Shown here one piece after another: positions 687 through 7,494 of a DNA stretch of 7,870 nucleotides. A program made the translations under genes and the position numbers. The stretch's first letter is position 1; each line of letters opens with the position of its first letter. The notes under the pieces were generated by a model, which worked only from the letters and a program-made list of their open reading frames with translations, did not search any database and was not told the DNA's origin. This stretch comes from Chloroflexota bacterium (GTDB lineage Bacteria; Chloroflexota; Anaerolineae; J102): the NCBI GenBank assembly GCA_013152695.1, contig JAADFV010000070.1, positions 10,586 through 18,455 of the forward strand, given 5' to 3'.

Positions 687-2777
687 ATGAATCCTATCAC
701 AGCATTTCTGGTGCAGCACCTCATCATCATACAGTTTTTATCCGGCCTGGTCTTTTTTGCTCTGGCGACCGTAGTGATGGCCACCAGCCATCATAGAGAT
801 TCGGATTTTCGCTTTGCCCAGGCTCTGCCCCCTCTCGCTCTTTTTAGTTTACTTCAGAGTGCCTCCATTTGGTGGCAAATGTTCGGTGCAATAGAAAATG
901 GTAGCAGTGCGGGAGTTGTAATAGCGGGGGGACAAATCATCTTGTTGGCGACTTCTTTTTTGGCTTTACTCACCTTTGGGATGTTACTTCTCAGCCCCGA
1001 GCGCCTCAGCCGCCTGCAACTGATGACACCCTTGCTTATTCTTGTGGTGATCTGGCTGGGCGGGGTCTTCATCGCAGATACCGTCCTAAAACCAGACCTC
1101 CCATCTATCCTGGCCATTACGACGATGCTTGCACGATATGGCCTGGGGATTCCTGCATCACTTCTGGCAACGTGGGCGCTCATGCGCCAGCAACGGACGT
1201 TTCGGGAACAAGGCTTGCCGCAGTTCGGGCATTATCTGGTATGGTCGGCGGCAGCATTGTTGCTATTTGGGACATTAGGTCAGGCTTTTGCGCAAACAAC
1301 TGCCATCATCCCCTCCAACATCCTCAATGCCCAAAACTTCTTGGCCTGGTTTGGCATTCCTATCGAGCTCTTTCGGGGTGTGCTTATTGCTGTTTTTGCC
1401 TTCTTCTTTCAGAAAGCTCTGGGGTCCTTTGCAGCCGAACGTGAGCGACGCCTTAGCGAAGCAAATCAGGCGAAAATCGCAGCCCAACAGGCCCAACTGG
1501 AAGCAGAACGCCTCAACCGCCAGGCAATGGAGATTTTGAACCAGGAATTACGCTTGACAACCCAGGAACTCACACTCCTGCTACACATCGCCAACATTCT
1601 GGTTTCTCCCCGTCCTCTCACAGAACGGCTGCAACAGACCCTGCATGAGTTGGTAGCCAGTGTGCCAGTATGTGATCATGGCCTCATTCTCCTGCCCACA
1701 AAACACCCGCAAATGCCCATGATCGTGACCGAGGGTTTCGATGTCAATGTCGGCCCGGATTTACGCGAGCAGGCCGTGTTCCTGGGTCACCAGGCCATCG
1801 CCAAAGGCGTGGCAATGTGCCAACGCATCAATGGCGTGATTCTGAATTTCGATCCCAACAACGAAGTCGAACGCCAACAGTGCCGCGAATACCCCTATCC
1901 GATGGTGACCCTGGCCTTACCCCTCTCGGTACAAGAGCGCGTGATCGGCAGTCTCGTCTTTGCCTGGCCCTTTGCCAATGCTCGCAAACCCTTCTCCATG
2001 GACGAATTCCAACTGGTTTTCACAGCCACACAGCAGCTAGCTTTATCGATCGAGCATGCCCGCCTCAATGCTGCTGTGCAAGAACGCGAGGCTCTTCTGG
2101 AAAAACTCCTCCAGCAAATCGTCAATGCTCAAGAAGCAGAACGTAAACGCATTGCCCGAGACCTGCATGACGCCACCAGCCAGGCTCTCACTGCCATATC
2201 CTTAGGCTTGCGCGGGATCGAAGCTGTTCTTCAGCAAGAAGGAAGTGCCGTCACGGACCAGGTGCAAGAACTCGGGAAGATGAGTACCGAGGCCCTGACA
2301 GAGCTCCGCCAGATCATGTCCGACTTACGCCCTTCGCACCTGGATGACCTGGGTTTGACGCCCACTGTCCGCTGGTGTGTCGGAAATTATGAAAAGCGCT
2401 ATGGTATCCCCGTTTCTCTAGAGCTGCGAGGGCAACAAGAACGCCTGAATCCCGAACGCGAAACTTTGCTCTTTCGCATCGTGCAAGAAGCTCTGACCAA
2501 TGCCGCCAAACATGCTCACCCTTCCCATGTCCACGTCACCCTCGCTTACGAACCCGAACAAATTTATTTGGCGGTGGAGGATGATGGTGTGGGCTTCGAT
2601 GTCAACTCGGCTCTGCGGCGCCAGCAGAAAGAGGGGGGCTGGGGATTGATTGGCATGCAAGAGCGCGCATCTCTATTGGGGGGACAGATGTCTATTCATT
2701 CCACGGTCGGTCAAGGCACACGCATCGAGGTGAGTATTCCTCGCTTTGGAGGTAATCAGCATGACAAAGAAAATTAA
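687..2777 (+). CDS. Membrane sensor histidine kinase, NarL/HPK7 type, 7-TM + GAF-like
   Basis: This 696-residue kinase should autophosphorylate on His494 and pass the phosphate to the regulator encoded immediately downstream. Seven hydrophobic spans are visible near residues 9-31, 44-66, 75-102, 111-130, 146-166, 183-203 and 217-242. A charged coiled coil (about 249-298) and a GAF-like region (about 300-465) follow. A second helix leads into the HisKA_3 dimerisation domain with the H-box ERKRIARDLHD. The HATPase domain has its N-box Asn at 605 (EALTNAAKHA), a G1 box DDGVGF (632-637) and a G2 box GGWGLIGM (about 650-657). The fold order and H-box are typical of NarX/DegS-like kinases. The membrane part has no large extracytoplasmic loop, so the signal is probably sensed within the membrane or by the GAF-like region; the ligand is unknown. 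ATG 687 is the first start after an in-frame TAA at 648, but it has no Shine-Dalgarno. The gene end overlaps the regulator gene by 17 bp. Confidence 0.93.
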   Translation: MNPITAFLVQHLIIIQFLSGLVFFALATVVMATSHHRDSDFRFAQALPPLALFSLLQSASIWWQMFGAIENGSSAGVVIAGGQIILLATSFLALLTFGMLLLSPERLSRLQLMTPLLILVVIWLGGVFIADTVLKPDLPSILAITTMLARYGLGIPASLLATWALMRQQRTFREQGLPQFGHYLVWSAAALLLFGTLGQAFAQTTAIIPSNILNAQNFLAWFGIPIELFRGVLIAVFAFFFQKALGSFAAERERRLSEANQAKIAAQQAQLEAERLNRQAMEILNQELRLTTQELTLLLHIANILVSPRPLTERLQQTLHELVASVPVCDHGLILLPTKHPQMPMIVTEGFDVNVGPDLREQAVFLGHQAIAKGVAMCQRINGVILNFDPNNEVERQQCREYPYPMVTLALPLSVQERVIGSLVFAWPFANARKPFSMDEFQLVFTATQQLALSIEHARLNAAVQEREALLEKLLQQIVNAQEAERKRIARDLHDATSQALTAISLGLRGIEAVLQQEGSAVTDQVQELGKMSTEALTELRQIMSDLRPSHLDDLGLTPTVRWCVGNYEKRYGIPVSLELRGQQERLNPERETLLFRIVQEALTNAAKHAHPSHVHVTLAYEPEQIYLAVEDDGVGFDVNSALRRQQKEGGWGLIGMQERASLLGGQMSIHSTVGQGTRIEVSIPRFGGNQHDKEN
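2748..2753 (+). promoter_or_regulatory. Shine-Dalgarno of the response regulator gene
   Basis: GGAGGT sits 7 bases before ATG 2761, inside the last codons of the kinase gene. It decides the regulator start: the in-frame TTG at 2746 would lie upstream of this site and add five residues (MEVIS) that are not family-like. The overlap suggests translational coupling of kinase and regulator. Confidence 0.85.
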
Positions 2778-3420
2778 ACTGCTCCTGGTCGATGATCATG
2801 CTATTGTGCGTTCAGGCTTACGCATGCTTTTTCAGTCTGAGCAGGATATGGAAATCGTGGGAGAGGCAGGCACCGGTGAAGAAGCCTTGATCGCCGTGCA
2901 GACTTTAGAGCCGGATGTGGTGGTGATGGATGTGGCTATGCCGGGGATGACGGGCATCGAAGCGACCCGAAGGATCAAAAAGGCAAATCCGGATGTAGCA
3001 GTCCTGGCATTGACCATGTACGAAGATGAGCAGTATTTCTTTCAAATGTTAGAAGCCGGGGCTTCCGGCTACATTCCCAAACGGGCCGCTCCTGATGATC
3101 TGGTCTCAGCCGTACGCGTGGTGGGGCAGGGCAATGTCTTCTTGTACCCCTCACTGGCTAAGTTACTGGTCAATGACTTTCGGCAACGCGAGGCCAACGA
3201 TGATGTTACCAATATCCCTAAATTAACCCCTCGCGAACGGGATGTTTTGGCCCTCATTGCCGAAGGCTTTACGAATCGAGAAATTGCGGAGCGCCTGGTG
3301 ATTAGCGTGAAGACCGTAGACCGGCATCGCGAAAATATCATGAATAAACTCGATCTCCATAATCGTGTGGCCTTGGTCAAGTACGCCATTGCCAAAGGTC
3401 TGATCAGCGCTGAAGAATAA
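2761..3420 (+). CDS. NarL/FixJ-family response regulator (receiver + LuxR HTH)
   Basis: This 219-residue cytoplasmic DNA-binding regulator is the probable phosphoryl acceptor of the kinase encoded just upstream. The receiver domain (about 5-120) shows the acidic pair Asp11-Asp12, the phospho-acceptor Asp57 ([11 protein letters not shown]), Thr85 and Lys107, all the residues needed for phosphorylation and switching. A short linker leads to a LuxR-type helix-turn-helix (about 153-215) with [20 protein letters not shown] and a recognition helix around [14 protein letters not shown]. Length and order match the NarL family closely. The start at ATG 2761 is chosen for its well-spaced GGAGGT. The gene overlaps the kinase by 17 bp and ends at a hairpin terminator, so the two form a two-gene operon. 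No target operator can be assigned from this window. Confidence 0.96.
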
Positions 3421-3485: not shown

Positions 3486-5075
3486 CTAAGGATGAGCGAT
3501 TAAGGGCATCCATATTAAGACCGGAGTAGGGCTGGGTGTTTGTGTGGGAGTAGGGGTTTGAGTTGGTGTAGGAGATGGTGTCGGACTCGATGTCGCCGTT
3601 GCTGTTGGTGTAGAAGTTGGAGTGCTGGTGGGTGTGAGGGTAGGAGTCGGAGTCATCGTAGCCGTGGGGGTAGCTGTCGGTGTGGCGGTGGGTAGCGGTG
3701 TCGGCGTGGGGACGGTGCCAGACTGCAAAAGATATTCGAAAGTGAGCTCGGGTAAACGCTCTGGTTCATTCCAATTACTGCTGACAAACTTGTAAAGTTG
3801 ATTTGCCGAGGCATCGCCTGTGATCATCCAGCCGTAGTTAGTGGCCGTTCCCGCCAAGAAGTCTTGGACATCGGCAGTGACATCCCAGGAAGTGAATGTT
3901 CCTACCGCGGTCATGGGTACATCGCTGGTAGTGGTTGCCGCCCGGTCTGTGGCACCCATGCCTCCACCAGTCTCCCAGGGTTGGCCGGCAGCGGCTTGTT
4001 GCCAGGTAGCTGTTTTCTCATCCCAGGGGCGCAACATGCGATAAAGATGCGTTTGCAAGGTAGAAACCTGATCCTCATACACATTCAGCCGCAGTGTTGC
4101 CCGCGTGATCTGTGCATCGGTCGGCAATGCCGACAGATCAAATTGAATCAGGCTACGACGGGCACCACTGGAATGCACCCAGAGATGACCGAGATTGCCG
4201 TAATTGCTGGTGGGATTCCATTCGTCGAGAATGGTGTCCTGTACCGTGGTCTGACCGTCGCCTGCCTTGAGAAGCAGGGTCAAAGGACGTAAGGCCAACA
4301 CGCCAAAATCGGCCTGGACGCCGGTAACCGAAGCCCCCTGCCAGTTGAGATAGCGTTCCGGTGTACCGTCATCATTGTCGTCATCCTGGAGACCAATATT
4401 GAACGGAAGTTGCTGGTGCGCCGTCAATTCGCCACCGAGAAGGCTGGCGGGGATCGCTAATTCCAGCTGATAGCCGTCAGCACTGGGCTGAGCCGCAGCA
4501 ACGATGGCTGTTGTGTCGCCCCCAAGGGACTGGATCTCGCCATCGGGCCGTACCAAAAGACTGAGATCGTCAGCACCAGGCCGAGCATCGGCGCTGGGAT
4601 CAAAGCTGAGGAGGAGGCCATCCCCAGTTGCGACCTGATTGTCGCTTACAGCAATGCCCAGGAAAAGGTAATCACGCCACCAGCCCCAATGCACGACTGC
4701 GCTGAGATCTGCATCGTTGTCCAGAGGCTGTCCTTGCACGGAGTCGGCAGTGGTATTGTTCAGTTGTAAGGTCGGAGCAGCATTCCACTCGCTGAGATCG
4801 CCGTCGAGAGTACGTGCGCCCACGGCAAAAGCTTCGAGTGTGGGTTGCTGGCGGTCGAACTGGAAGAGTACCAGCTCGCCAAAACCAGCAGGATCACCAT
4901 CCAGGCTCTCTCCTGCCCAAATCAGAACGGTATCGTTGTCCTGGGTGGAGGTCTGGGCGGCAGGATTATCCCGGTCGAACAGAGCTACATTTACTCCCAG
5001 CTTACGCAAATCGCAAATGCTCAAAATTGGCACCAACCGCGCTGGCGGGGAGAGAGGCTTCAATATCGTAGCCAT
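3486..5075 (-). CDS. C-terminal part: CBM9-like domain, DNRLRE domain, Thr-Pro linker and hydrophobic tail
   Basis: The open frame is 529 codons from ATG 5075, but the first 23 or so residues are an out-of-frame reading of the upstream gene; genuine homology resumes at about LRKLGVNV (residues 23-30). There is no Shine-Dalgarno before ATG 5075, so independent translation is doubtful. The end of CBM9-like domain 1 is followed by a full second copy (about 88-260: DGDLSEW, then GADDLSLLVRPDGE, then an AIPAS strand). A DNRLRE-type domain (about 266-448) follows, with TTVQDTILDEWNPTSNYGN, then SLIQFDLSALP, ATLRLNVYE, a Trp-rich stretch and YGWMITG. Residues 454-518 are nearly all Thr, Pro, Ser and Ala, and the protein ends VLIWMPLIAHP. 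DNRLRE and CBM9-like domains are typically carbohydrate-binding or wall-associated modules; the linker and tail suggest display at the cell surface. Taken alone it lacks any secretion signal. Confidence 0.75.
   Translation of the reverse strand: MATILKPLSPPARLVPILSICDLRKLGVNVALFDRDNPAAQTSTQDNDTVLIWAGESLDGDPAGFGELVLFQFDRQQPTLEAFAVGARTLDGDLSEWNAAPTLQLNNTTADSVQGQPLDNDADLSAVVHWGWWRDYLFLGIAVSDNQVATGDGLLLSFDPSADARPGADDLSLLVRPDGEIQSLGGDTTAIVAAAQPSADGYQLELAIPASLLGGELTAHQQLPFNIGLQDDDNDDGTPERYLNWQGASVTGVQADFGVLALRPLTLLLKAGDGQTTVQDTILDEWNPTSNYGNLGHLWVHSSGARRSLIQFDLSALPTDAQITRATLRLNVYEDQVSTLQTHLYRMLRPWDEKTATWQQAAAGQPWETGGGMGATDRAATTTSDVPMTAVGTFTSWDVTADVQDFLAGTATNYGWMITGDASANQLYKFVSSNWNEPERLPELTFEYLLQSGTVPTPTPLPTATPTATPTATMTPTPTLTPTSTPTSTPTATATSSPTPSPTPTQTPTPTQTPSPTPVLIWMPLIAHP
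3522..3716 (-). repeat. Low-complexity Thr-Pro linker (about 65 codons)
   Basis: This stretch encodes an almost pure run of Thr, Pro, Ser and Ala, with units such as PTPTPTQTP and PTATPTATP. At the DNA level it is an imperfect hexamer-like repeat (reverse-strand ACTCCGACTCC, ACACCCACC). It would form an extended, possibly glycosylated spacer between the folded domains and the C-terminal tail. Such repeats are prone to length change between strains. Confidence 0.85.
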
Positions 5076-7482
5076 CCGGCAGCAAACGAACTGCGTATTG
5101 CCAAGTGGGAGGCGGCGCTTGCCCGTTCACCAAGAGGCTACCATCAGCACCGAATAGCATGGTGACATCATCGGCGCCGATCACGCCGTCTTGCAGGCCA
5201 TCCAGGGCCAGACCGACTTGATCAAGATGATTGGTTGCAGTGAGCACATCATTGTCGTCGATATGGATGCCGAAGTAGAGGTTGTTATCATCCCAGCGTA
5301 CACGTACATCCGCATTAAGATCGCTTATCTCGGGCTCTTGACCGGTAATGAGATCGGCGTCACTGGCGTTGATGCTGCGCTGATAAGTTGCCGACCACTC
5401 AGCTAAGGAACCATCGACGCTCGATACCCCCTGCGGACTGGCAATCAGGCGACGATCGGCCTGAGCAAAACGTAAAATCGTCTGGCCATCGCCAGCGGCA
5501 TAAACGAGGGTACGGTCGAAAGCATCCACGCTCCAGAGATCTCCGGCTGCAGGGACATCGAGCACCGTCCAGGTAACACCATCTTCAATCGCGGCCAGGA
5601 AGCCATCTCGCCCAACCGCCCAACCGGTATTTTCATCCACCATCTCGATACTATAAATCAAGCTATTGACACCGGTGAACCGATAGTCTTCCCAGGTGAA
5701 GCCGCCATCCTCGCTGTGCAAAATTCCTGCTTCAACGCAAGGATGGGTGTCATCTTCATGGGCCCAGGCACCAGGGCGATAACAACCAGCGTACCAGATA
5801 TTATCGAGGGCACCATTGTTATCGACATCATAGGCATCAATCGAGTGCAAGAACCAGCCACTGTATTCGGTAGGCAACGGAGGGCGGTGCCCCCAGGTTT
5901 GACCACCATCCAGGGTGTAGCGAGGGCCAGCCGATGTTTTTAGAATGGCGGCCACACCCACATTCTCGTTGATCATATCGAGATCGACACCTGTCGTACG
6001 GATGACAGGTTGGGATTCAGTCCAAAATTGATTATTGGTCGTGTAGAAATAGTGGTGAGTGCCGGTGGTTACTCCCTTTTTATCGGTCGTGCGATTCACA
6101 TCGTACAAAAATCCACCGTAGCTCGGTGTCCATTCCCGGCGCCAGGTGGCACCACCATCGAGGGTGTGCACCATCAGGGCCCCGCGTCCCACAGCATGAC
6201 AGTCGTTGGGATTGCCCGGGGCACAATCGATAGCCATGAGCCAGGACCCGAGAGTCTCGGCCGTGACCGCGATTTCAGGATTATCGCGGAATTCCTGGGC
6301 GAGTTCACGCCAGGTATTACCGCCATCTTCAGTTTTCAGGGCAACGACATGATCGCCTACAGCATAGGCCACCTTGTCGCTGGCAGCTTTGATACTAAAG
6401 AAGCGGGGATAATGCCCGCCGATCACATGCTCCCAGTTGATGCCATTGCGCGTGCGCCACATAAACCAGCTGGGAAGCTGCGTAGGACCACCCCAATTGC
6501 CGTCGTTTTCAGCAATGACCGATCCTGCCGCCCACACATGTTCCGTATCACCGACGCCTAAAGCAAAGAGGTCCCAACCATCACTGGCACTGCTCAACTT
6601 CCAGGTGGCGCCACCATCAGCGGTGCGCCCGACACGTCCATTGGGGCCGGCAACCCAGCCGATCTGGTCTTGACCAAAGGCAAATTCGATCTCGGTGAGG
6701 GCGACACCAACATTGGCTTGTACCGCCCAGGTTGCGCCGGAGTCGCTGCTGTGATACACACGACCATCACTCCCTACAGCCCAGAAATGATCGCCGGATA
6801 CGGCAATATCTTCCAACTGGGTGCTGGTTGGAATCAGTCCTGCGACAGGAGTCCAAGTGGTGCCGGCATCGGATGTGGTCAAGAGCACGCCATTGGCGCC
6901 GGCGGCAGCACCGTGCAATCCATCATCAGCCATGGCGATAGCACGCAAAGCGGTACTCACACCGCTGGCTTGTTGTGTCCAGGTATCACCACCATCGGCC
7001 GTCTGCCAGATTTCCCCACCATCGCCCACGACCCAGCCGTGGGAACTATCGACAAAGGCCACGCCATAGAGGTGATTGGCCAGACCTGTGGCTAATTGCC
7101 GCCAAGAGGCTCCCCCATCTTTCGAGCCGATTACCAGACCTTCGGCGCCGACCGCCCACATGCGTCCCCCCACTATCGCCAGGGCATTGAGGTCCTGGTT
7201 GGGGAAAGGTGCCTGGTAATGCCAGGTTTCGCCACCATTGCTGCTGTTGATGATCATACCACTGGTGCCCACACCCACGATAGTCTGGGCGTCAATCCCG
7301 ACCAGGGCCTGGACAGCACCATCACCGCGCCATACCGGCTGCCAGGAGCCTTGCGCGGCCGGGGCAGCCGGGGCAAGGGTCGTCTCAGTCGTTGGGGTGT
7401 TAAGACCATAGCTGGCCGACAACGGTACGGCCAGAAGCATAAGCATTATCAGAAAGAAGCGAAAGCGGTTTCGTCGTATCAC
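5002..7482 (-). CDS. N-terminal part: secreted Ycf48/BNR-like propeller plus truncated CBM9-like domain
   Basis: As written this frame encodes 826 residues. The start is GTG 7482-7480, with GGAGAG six bases upstream. Residues 1-24 form a signal peptide (Arg-rich start, FFLIMLMLLAVPL core, SAS), followed by a Thr/Ala/Pro-rich stretch. Asp-box-like motifs of the type DGGxTW recur near residues 82, 122, 163, 205, 247, 289, 345, 386, 442, 525, 592 and 633. The first six are spaced a regular 40-42 residues apart, as in Ycf48/HCF136-like and BNR propellers. Two cysteine pairs (420/428 and 567/582) may form disulfides. A CBM9-like domain starts near 685 (VDGSLAEW) and is cut off by the stop after EHLRFA. 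In photosynthetic organisms Ycf48 assists photosystem II, but similar propellers are common in unrelated secreted bacterial proteins and nothing here points to photosynthesis. Ligand unknown. Confidence 0.85.
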   Translation of the reverse strand: MIRRNRFRFFLIMLMLLAVPLSASYGLNTPTTETTLAPAAPAAQGSWQPVWRGDGAVQALVGIDAQTIVGVGTSGMIINSSNGGETWHYQAPFPNQDLNALAIVGGRMWAVGAEGLVIGSKDGGASWRQLATGLANHLYGVAFVDSSHGWVVGDGGEIWQTADGGDTWTQQASGVSTALRAIAMADDGLHGAAAGANGVLLTTSDAGTTWTPVAGLIPTSTQLEDIAVSGDHFWAVGSDGRVYHSSDSGATWAVQANVGVALTEIEFAFGQDQIGWVAGPNGRVGRTADGGATWKLSSASDGWDLFALGVGDTEHVWAAGSVIAENDGNWGGPTQLPSWFMWRTRNGINWEHVIGGHYPRFFSIKAASDKVAYAVGDHVVALKTEDGGNTWRELAQEFRDNPEIAVTAETLGSWLMAIDCAPGNPNDCHAVGRGALMVHTLDGGATWRREWTPSYGGFLYDVNRTTDKKGVTTGTHHYFYTTNNQFWTESQPVIRTTGVDLDMINENVGVAAILKTSAGPRYTLDGGQTWGHRPPLPTEYSGWFLHSIDAYDVDNNGALDNIWYAGCYRPGAWAHEDDTHPCVEAGILHSEDGGFTWEDYRFTGVNSLIYSIEMVDENTGWAVGRDGFLAAIEDGVTWTVLDVPAAGDLWSVDAFDRTLVYAAGDGQTILRFAQADRRLIASPQGVSSVDGSLAEWSATYQRSINASDADLITGQEPEISDLNADVRVRWDDNNLYFGIHIDDNDVLTATNHLDQVGLALDGLQDGVIGADDVTMLFGADGSLLVNGQAPPPTWQYAVRLLPDGYDIEASLPASAVGANFEHLRFA
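5005..5018. repeat. Tandem 7-bp duplication causing the frameshift
   Basis: CGCAAAT occurs twice back to back (5005-5011, 5012-5018); on the coding strand this is ATTTGCG-ATTTGCG. Seven is 1 modulo 3, so the second copy moves the reading frame and the TAA at 5004-5002 follows at once. With one copy the coding strand reads GAG CAT TTG CGT AAG CTG (EHLRKL), in frame on both sides. Confidence 0.93.
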
Positions 7483-7488
7483 AAGATT

Positions 7489-7494
7489 CTCTCC
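7489..7494 (-). promoter_or_regulatory. Shine-Dalgarno supporting the GTG start of the secreted protein
   Basis: On the minus strand, GGAGAG (7494-7489) is followed by six bases and then GTG (7482-7480). Together with the signal peptide that begins immediately (MIRRNRFRFFLIML), this fixes a non-ATG start. Confidence 0.75.

Follow-up and report, generated by a model that had tools for sequence, protein, structure and literature searches.

We have analysed a window of 7,870 nt (the whole stretch of DNA under study) in which two long open reading frames of the minus strand meet at a short perfect tandem repeat. The heptamer CGCAAAT occupies positions 5005–5011 and again 5012–5018; the initial annotation had described this repeat at the junction of an 826-codon and a 529-codon frame, and both the repeat and the frames were found again. 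The stretch from 7482 to 3486 measures 3997 nt and so exceeds 1330 codons by 7 nt, consistent with the earlier arithmetic by which removal of one copy leaves 1330 codons. The junction comprises the following features:

7489–7494, minus strand: GGAGAG, a good Shine-Dalgarno-like sequence preceding the GTG at 7482
5002–7482, minus strand: upstream frame, 826 aa, GTG start; its stop (5002–5004) adjoins the repeat
5005–5018, no strand assigned: tandem duplication with a 7-bp unit, edges without microhomology
3486–5075, minus strand: downstream frame, 529 aa, internal ATG, without a Shine-Dalgarno-like sequence before the ATG at 5075

On sequence grounds, this is a single gene of Chloroflexi coding for a predicted exported protein with a tandem propeller, two CBM9-like domains and a CBM96/DNRLRE domain, and it is broken in the first CBM9. 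The domains and segments are arranged as follows, from the N- to the C-terminal side:

5434–7347, minus strand: propeller region of the YCF48/BNR type, residues about 46–683 (Pfam PSII_BNR, 118.1 bits versus 27)
5044–5391, minus strand: first CBM9-like domain, cut short, residues 698–813 (Pfam)
4332–4790, minus strand: second CBM9-like domain, residues 96–248 of the downstream frame (Pfam)
3765–4250, minus strand: CBM96/DNRLRE domain, residues 276–437 of the downstream frame
3522–3710, minus strand: Pro/Thr-rich stalk, limits approximate, read from the translation
3489–3521, minus strand: short C-terminal tail VLIWMPLIAHP; a similar tail ends 22 of 27 homologues

The CBM96/DNRLRE assignment lies above the curated cutoffs of both collections (Pfam CBM96, 68.3 versus 26; NCBIfam DNRLRE, 104.9 versus 34). 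The Pfam CBM9_1 model scored 26.2 for the first domain of the window and 22.5 for the second, with a gathering cutoff of 23.4, and reached 66.0 and 83.4, in two stretches each, in the homologous proteins P0002 and P0003. Since the first CBM9 domain of these homologues ends at residues 869 (P0002) and 855 (P0003), about 41–47 residues beyond the equivalent of the break, the upstream frame stops inside this domain. A structural model of the upstream frame, built from a 24-sequence alignment (mean pLDDT 85.7, pTM 0.78), displayed a long run of propeller strands (46–683) followed by CBM9 strands, with residues 821–826 as a low-confidence stub. Among solved structures, the family profile matched 5ojp and 2xbg, which are YCF48-like chains, and 1i82, a xylanase CBM9. 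The protein compares most closely with YCF48/BNR propellers, GH74 xyloglucanases and CBM9/CBM96 modules, but differs from the first two: its score for the NCBIfam Ycf48 model (photosystem II assembly factor, equivalog) was below the cutoff (107.7 versus 326), and the GH74 enzymes that topped the Foldseek search with the upstream-frame model gave low TM-scores, of about 0.36–0.46.

As had been proposed, the truncated product would retain the export-signal-like start and the propeller while losing the C-terminal modules, the Pro/Thr stalk and the tail. Carbohydrate binding and retention at the cell surface are the probable roles of the lost parts, which, like export and anchoring, we infer from the protein sequence. 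The hydrophobic tail behind the Pro/Thr stalk, of the type [WY]-[LM]-P-[LVI]-[IVL] in the homologues that share it, may serve as a sorting or anchoring signal; an NCBIfam search at E 0.01 matched no sorting-signal model to it. The listing of the protein search contains an 812-residue version of the upstream frame (P0001), which as filed is without more than a third of its gene. The protein of the downstream frame itself was not found among the best 120 of 449 matches, the best of those listed being 49% identical.

The protein search returned 266 proteins, of which 120 were listed, and from these we aligned 27 homologues covering at least 84% of the query region, leaving out the window's own 812-residue entry. 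Four of the aligned proteins are distant (P0025, P0026, P0033 and P0042, 27–30% identical) and P0020 is a partial protein. All 27 run on past the site of the break, by 268–576 residues. At the DNA level, 36 homologous ORFs, the closer part of the matches listed, were collected from 34 loci in 20 genomes; 32 of them are open through the site, as judged by ORF length and matched range, and the other four end before it. Both sets overlap, P0002 being the gene of genome G005 and P0003 that of G017. In the 14 relative copies located by motif, the undivided codon spacing was the same throughout and the duplication was found in none. The nearest relative, G005, is 80% identical upstream of the break and 71% downstream, and carries 9 nt between conserved anchors where the window carries 16 nt, a comparison that narrows the frame change to those 16 nt. 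The idea that a 7-bp tandem duplication has split a single gene, with the undivided frame as the ancestral one, was borne out by 27 of 27 aligned proteins and by each of the 32 ORFs that reach the site; the frame of the window is disrupted with respect to intact homologues, as in a pseudogene.

Other matches contributed less at this position. The match in the L001 genome (77%) does not reach the site, stopping at query residue 727, and the best-scoring match of this genome to the downstream piece is 37% identical. Of 40 matches in plasmid records, none attained 60% identity or spanned 80% of the query. Stop counts had hinted at a broken paralogue in G002 (C417), which was discarded after its frame proved open to the tail (L051). 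Among the listed proteins, P0121 (732 aa; contig of 306,900 bp) is a homologue that starts inside the propeller, either because this copy is broken at its N-terminal end or because the gene call is short.

The overlap of the two long frames could also be read as two real genes, or as one protein produced via programmed frameshifting at the site. The corresponding check, a search for homologues that end and restart at this point, found none among the 27 proteins and 32 ORFs; the break interrupts a CBM9 domain that P0002 and P0003 have in full, and the second frame has no Shine-Dalgarno-like sequence before its start. Since the relatives keep to one frame at the site, no shift is needed there. 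Two genes or recoding are accordingly rejected on the undivided relatives, as an extremely improbable arrangement.

A perfect tandem 7-mer is not rare per se. In 500 simulations under a first-order Markov model of the window, the mean was 0.578 per window and at least one such repeat occurred in 35%, and 20 were counted in the 185,139 nt of 27 relative loci. The chance of a random one inside the 16 nt of the frame change is about 0.001 (0.578/7870 × 16), so that a chance repeat at 5005–5018 is ruled out by its position at the frame change and not by the repeat itself. The upstream frame holds two further perfect tandem repeats, at 5609–5626 and 7358–7375, with units of 8 bp (2.2 copies) and 9 bp (2 copies), respectively. 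Inverted repeats near the site are weak (77–91% complementary over 11–13 nt, 66–135 nt apart) and none of them frames the duplication.

The duplication may have arisen by slippage or, less likely, may be the target-site footprint of a mobile element since gone. The edges without microhomology are in line with such a footprint, and in the excerpted text of PMC5658596 7-bp duplications are recorded at 24 of 33 sites of ISS12 (IS21 family) in Pseudomonas putida S12. We nevertheless regard a mobile-element origin as highly improbable, as the searches with the window's main proteins recognised no element or remnant. It would, moreover, be unusual for an element to excise and leave nothing but the two copies behind.

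Regarding the age of the break, relative-rate counts with G017 as outgroup gave 41 unique residues in the window and 41 in G005 over 810 upstream columns, and 25 and 24, respectively, over 422 downstream columns. The dN/dS ratios against G005 were 0.067 upstream and 0.079 downstream, with dS values of 2.0 and 2.8; these lie close to saturation of the synonymous sites, which makes the test coarse for very young events. The downstream half does not evolve faster than the upstream one, so the break is recent, rare in the population, or an artefact. The relaxed constraint expected behind the break of a pseudogene was not observed. An old pseudogene is ruled out by the equal counts of unique residues, and if the gene is a pseudogene, these counts would make it a young one at most.

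The best reading of these data, and one that we hold to be fairly probable, is a recent and real 7-bp duplication that costs the C-terminal part of the protein. According to this proposal, an ancestor-like continuous frame would have encoded the tandem propeller, the two CBM9-like domains, the CBM96/DNRLRE domain, the Pro/Thr stalk and the short tail, until a 7-bp stretch was doubled in tandem, recently in evolutionary terms. Translation would then halt within the first CBM9 domain, at the stop that immediately follows the duplication, yielding a product with signal-like start and propeller that goes without its probable carbohydrate-binding and surface-holding parts. The downstream half would probably not be produced as a working protein, because it is devoid of a good translation start and of an export signal. 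Loss of one copy would be possible in principle, as in any tandem duplication; its use as a switch is not indicated. The repeat, the frame change, the intact relatives and the unrelaxed constraint are direct observations; the reality of the mutation and the fate of the truncated product we infer.

The main rival to a real mutation is an error of sequence or assembly, in which the gene is undivided in the cells and the contig shows a second copy by artefact. Unrelaxed constraint is expected equally from an artefact, and the break stands alone in a family that is otherwise constrained. Nevertheless, a perfect 7-bp duplication is not typical of base-calling errors and is unlike the usual substitution or homopolymer error, and 14 bp are short enough for any read to span. 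The histidine kinase, the response regulator and the visible part of an NADH-dehydrogenase-like gene are open in the window, so that frame errors are not widespread in the contig. We rank a real mutation above the artefact because an exact 7-bp tandem copy would be an unusual error; the artefact appears unlikely, though far from negligible.

A useful point of comparison is given by the singleton frame-shifted genes of GeneTack (PMC3711429, in its excerpted text), which resemble the window in having an isolated frame change that intact homologues confirm; the window differs in carrying a tandem repeat at its break. For such singletons a sequencing error or a recent indel is expected, and rather an error if they are homology-confirmed, a tendency that favours the artefact. 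Two relatives with frame breaks near their 3' ends (P0002/G005 and P0011), which may be errors too, point in the same direction.

The G005 gene (L049, G005:C22; P0002) reads through the break site of the window and has its own Pro/Thr stalk out of frame, the usual tail (..LLWMPLITQS) lying in another frame. Whether real or error, this break in the stalk costs the tail. P0011 (1239 aa; contig of 72,511 bp) has end residues unlike those of P0010 and, to judge from this ending, seems to leave the frame inside CBM96.

The initial annotation had further proposed a possible on/off switch, in which slippage between the copies would toggle the display of the C-terminal modules, and had itself listed pseudogenization and assembly error as alternatives. 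The tandem repeat does sit exactly at the break, the protein is probably surface-exposed and constraint is unrelaxed on both sides. A precedent is offered by the pneumococcal capsule genes (Waite 2001, 2003; cited in the excerpted text of PMC4022640), where switching by tandem duplications is reversible and where, as in the window, a short tandem duplication within a reading frame inactivates a surface-affecting gene. Both duplications would be revertible in principle, but reversion has been observed in the capsule genes, whereas one state is known for the window and its unit is only 7 bp. The same excerpt gives a reversion of about 1e-5 at most for short two-copy duplications with a unit of up to nine bp, so that reversion would be expected to be rare here. 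In addition, the duplication was seen in one sequence, with none of the 14 relatives' site DNA carrying it and no examined relative broken at this point, and the breaks of G005 and P0011 lie at other places. The switch is not supported by these results, and we consider an evolved one quite improbable.

The phase-variable genes delineated in the excerpted text of PMC3711429 combine a tandem repeat near the frame change with a cluster of at least five homologous frame-changed genes, the repeat marking phase variation only jointly with the cluster; a further mark is the presence of both states within one population, with a high switching rate. In the window, two 7-bp copies lie within the 16 nt of the frame change, and a frame change at the site is absent from all 27 proteins and from all 32 ORFs that reach it. 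A broader variant would take the two-copy form as one state of a mixed population, with the unit gained and lost by slippage, and, at once, the family as tuning shedding versus display of its C-terminal modules by frame breaks at varying places, namely the first CBM9 in the window, the Pro/Thr stalk in G005 and CBM96 in P0011; this combination is, in our estimation, very improbable. Compared with a switch, a recent break is the better fit, be it real or artefactual, and the duplication looks like an ordinary event, either an accident of recent date or an error in the sequence, and not like an evolved device.

If the switch were true, the locus would represent a phase-variable surface protein in uncultured Chloroflexi; in a literature search combining Chloroflexi and phase variation, neither term stood in the title or abstract among the matches listed. 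As it stands, the locus illustrates cleanly the splitting of a gene call by a short tandem duplication in an environmental contig, and it cautions that P0001 is filed incomplete.

As to the neighbourhood, the histidine kinase and the response regulator, which is of the LuxR type, lie at 687–3420 and separate the broken gene from the NADH-dehydrogenase-like gene. The latter is also found behind the G005 homologue, with 54% identity; there, the propeller-gene homologue and the NADH-dehydrogenase-like gene are direct neighbours, without the kinase/regulator pair between them.
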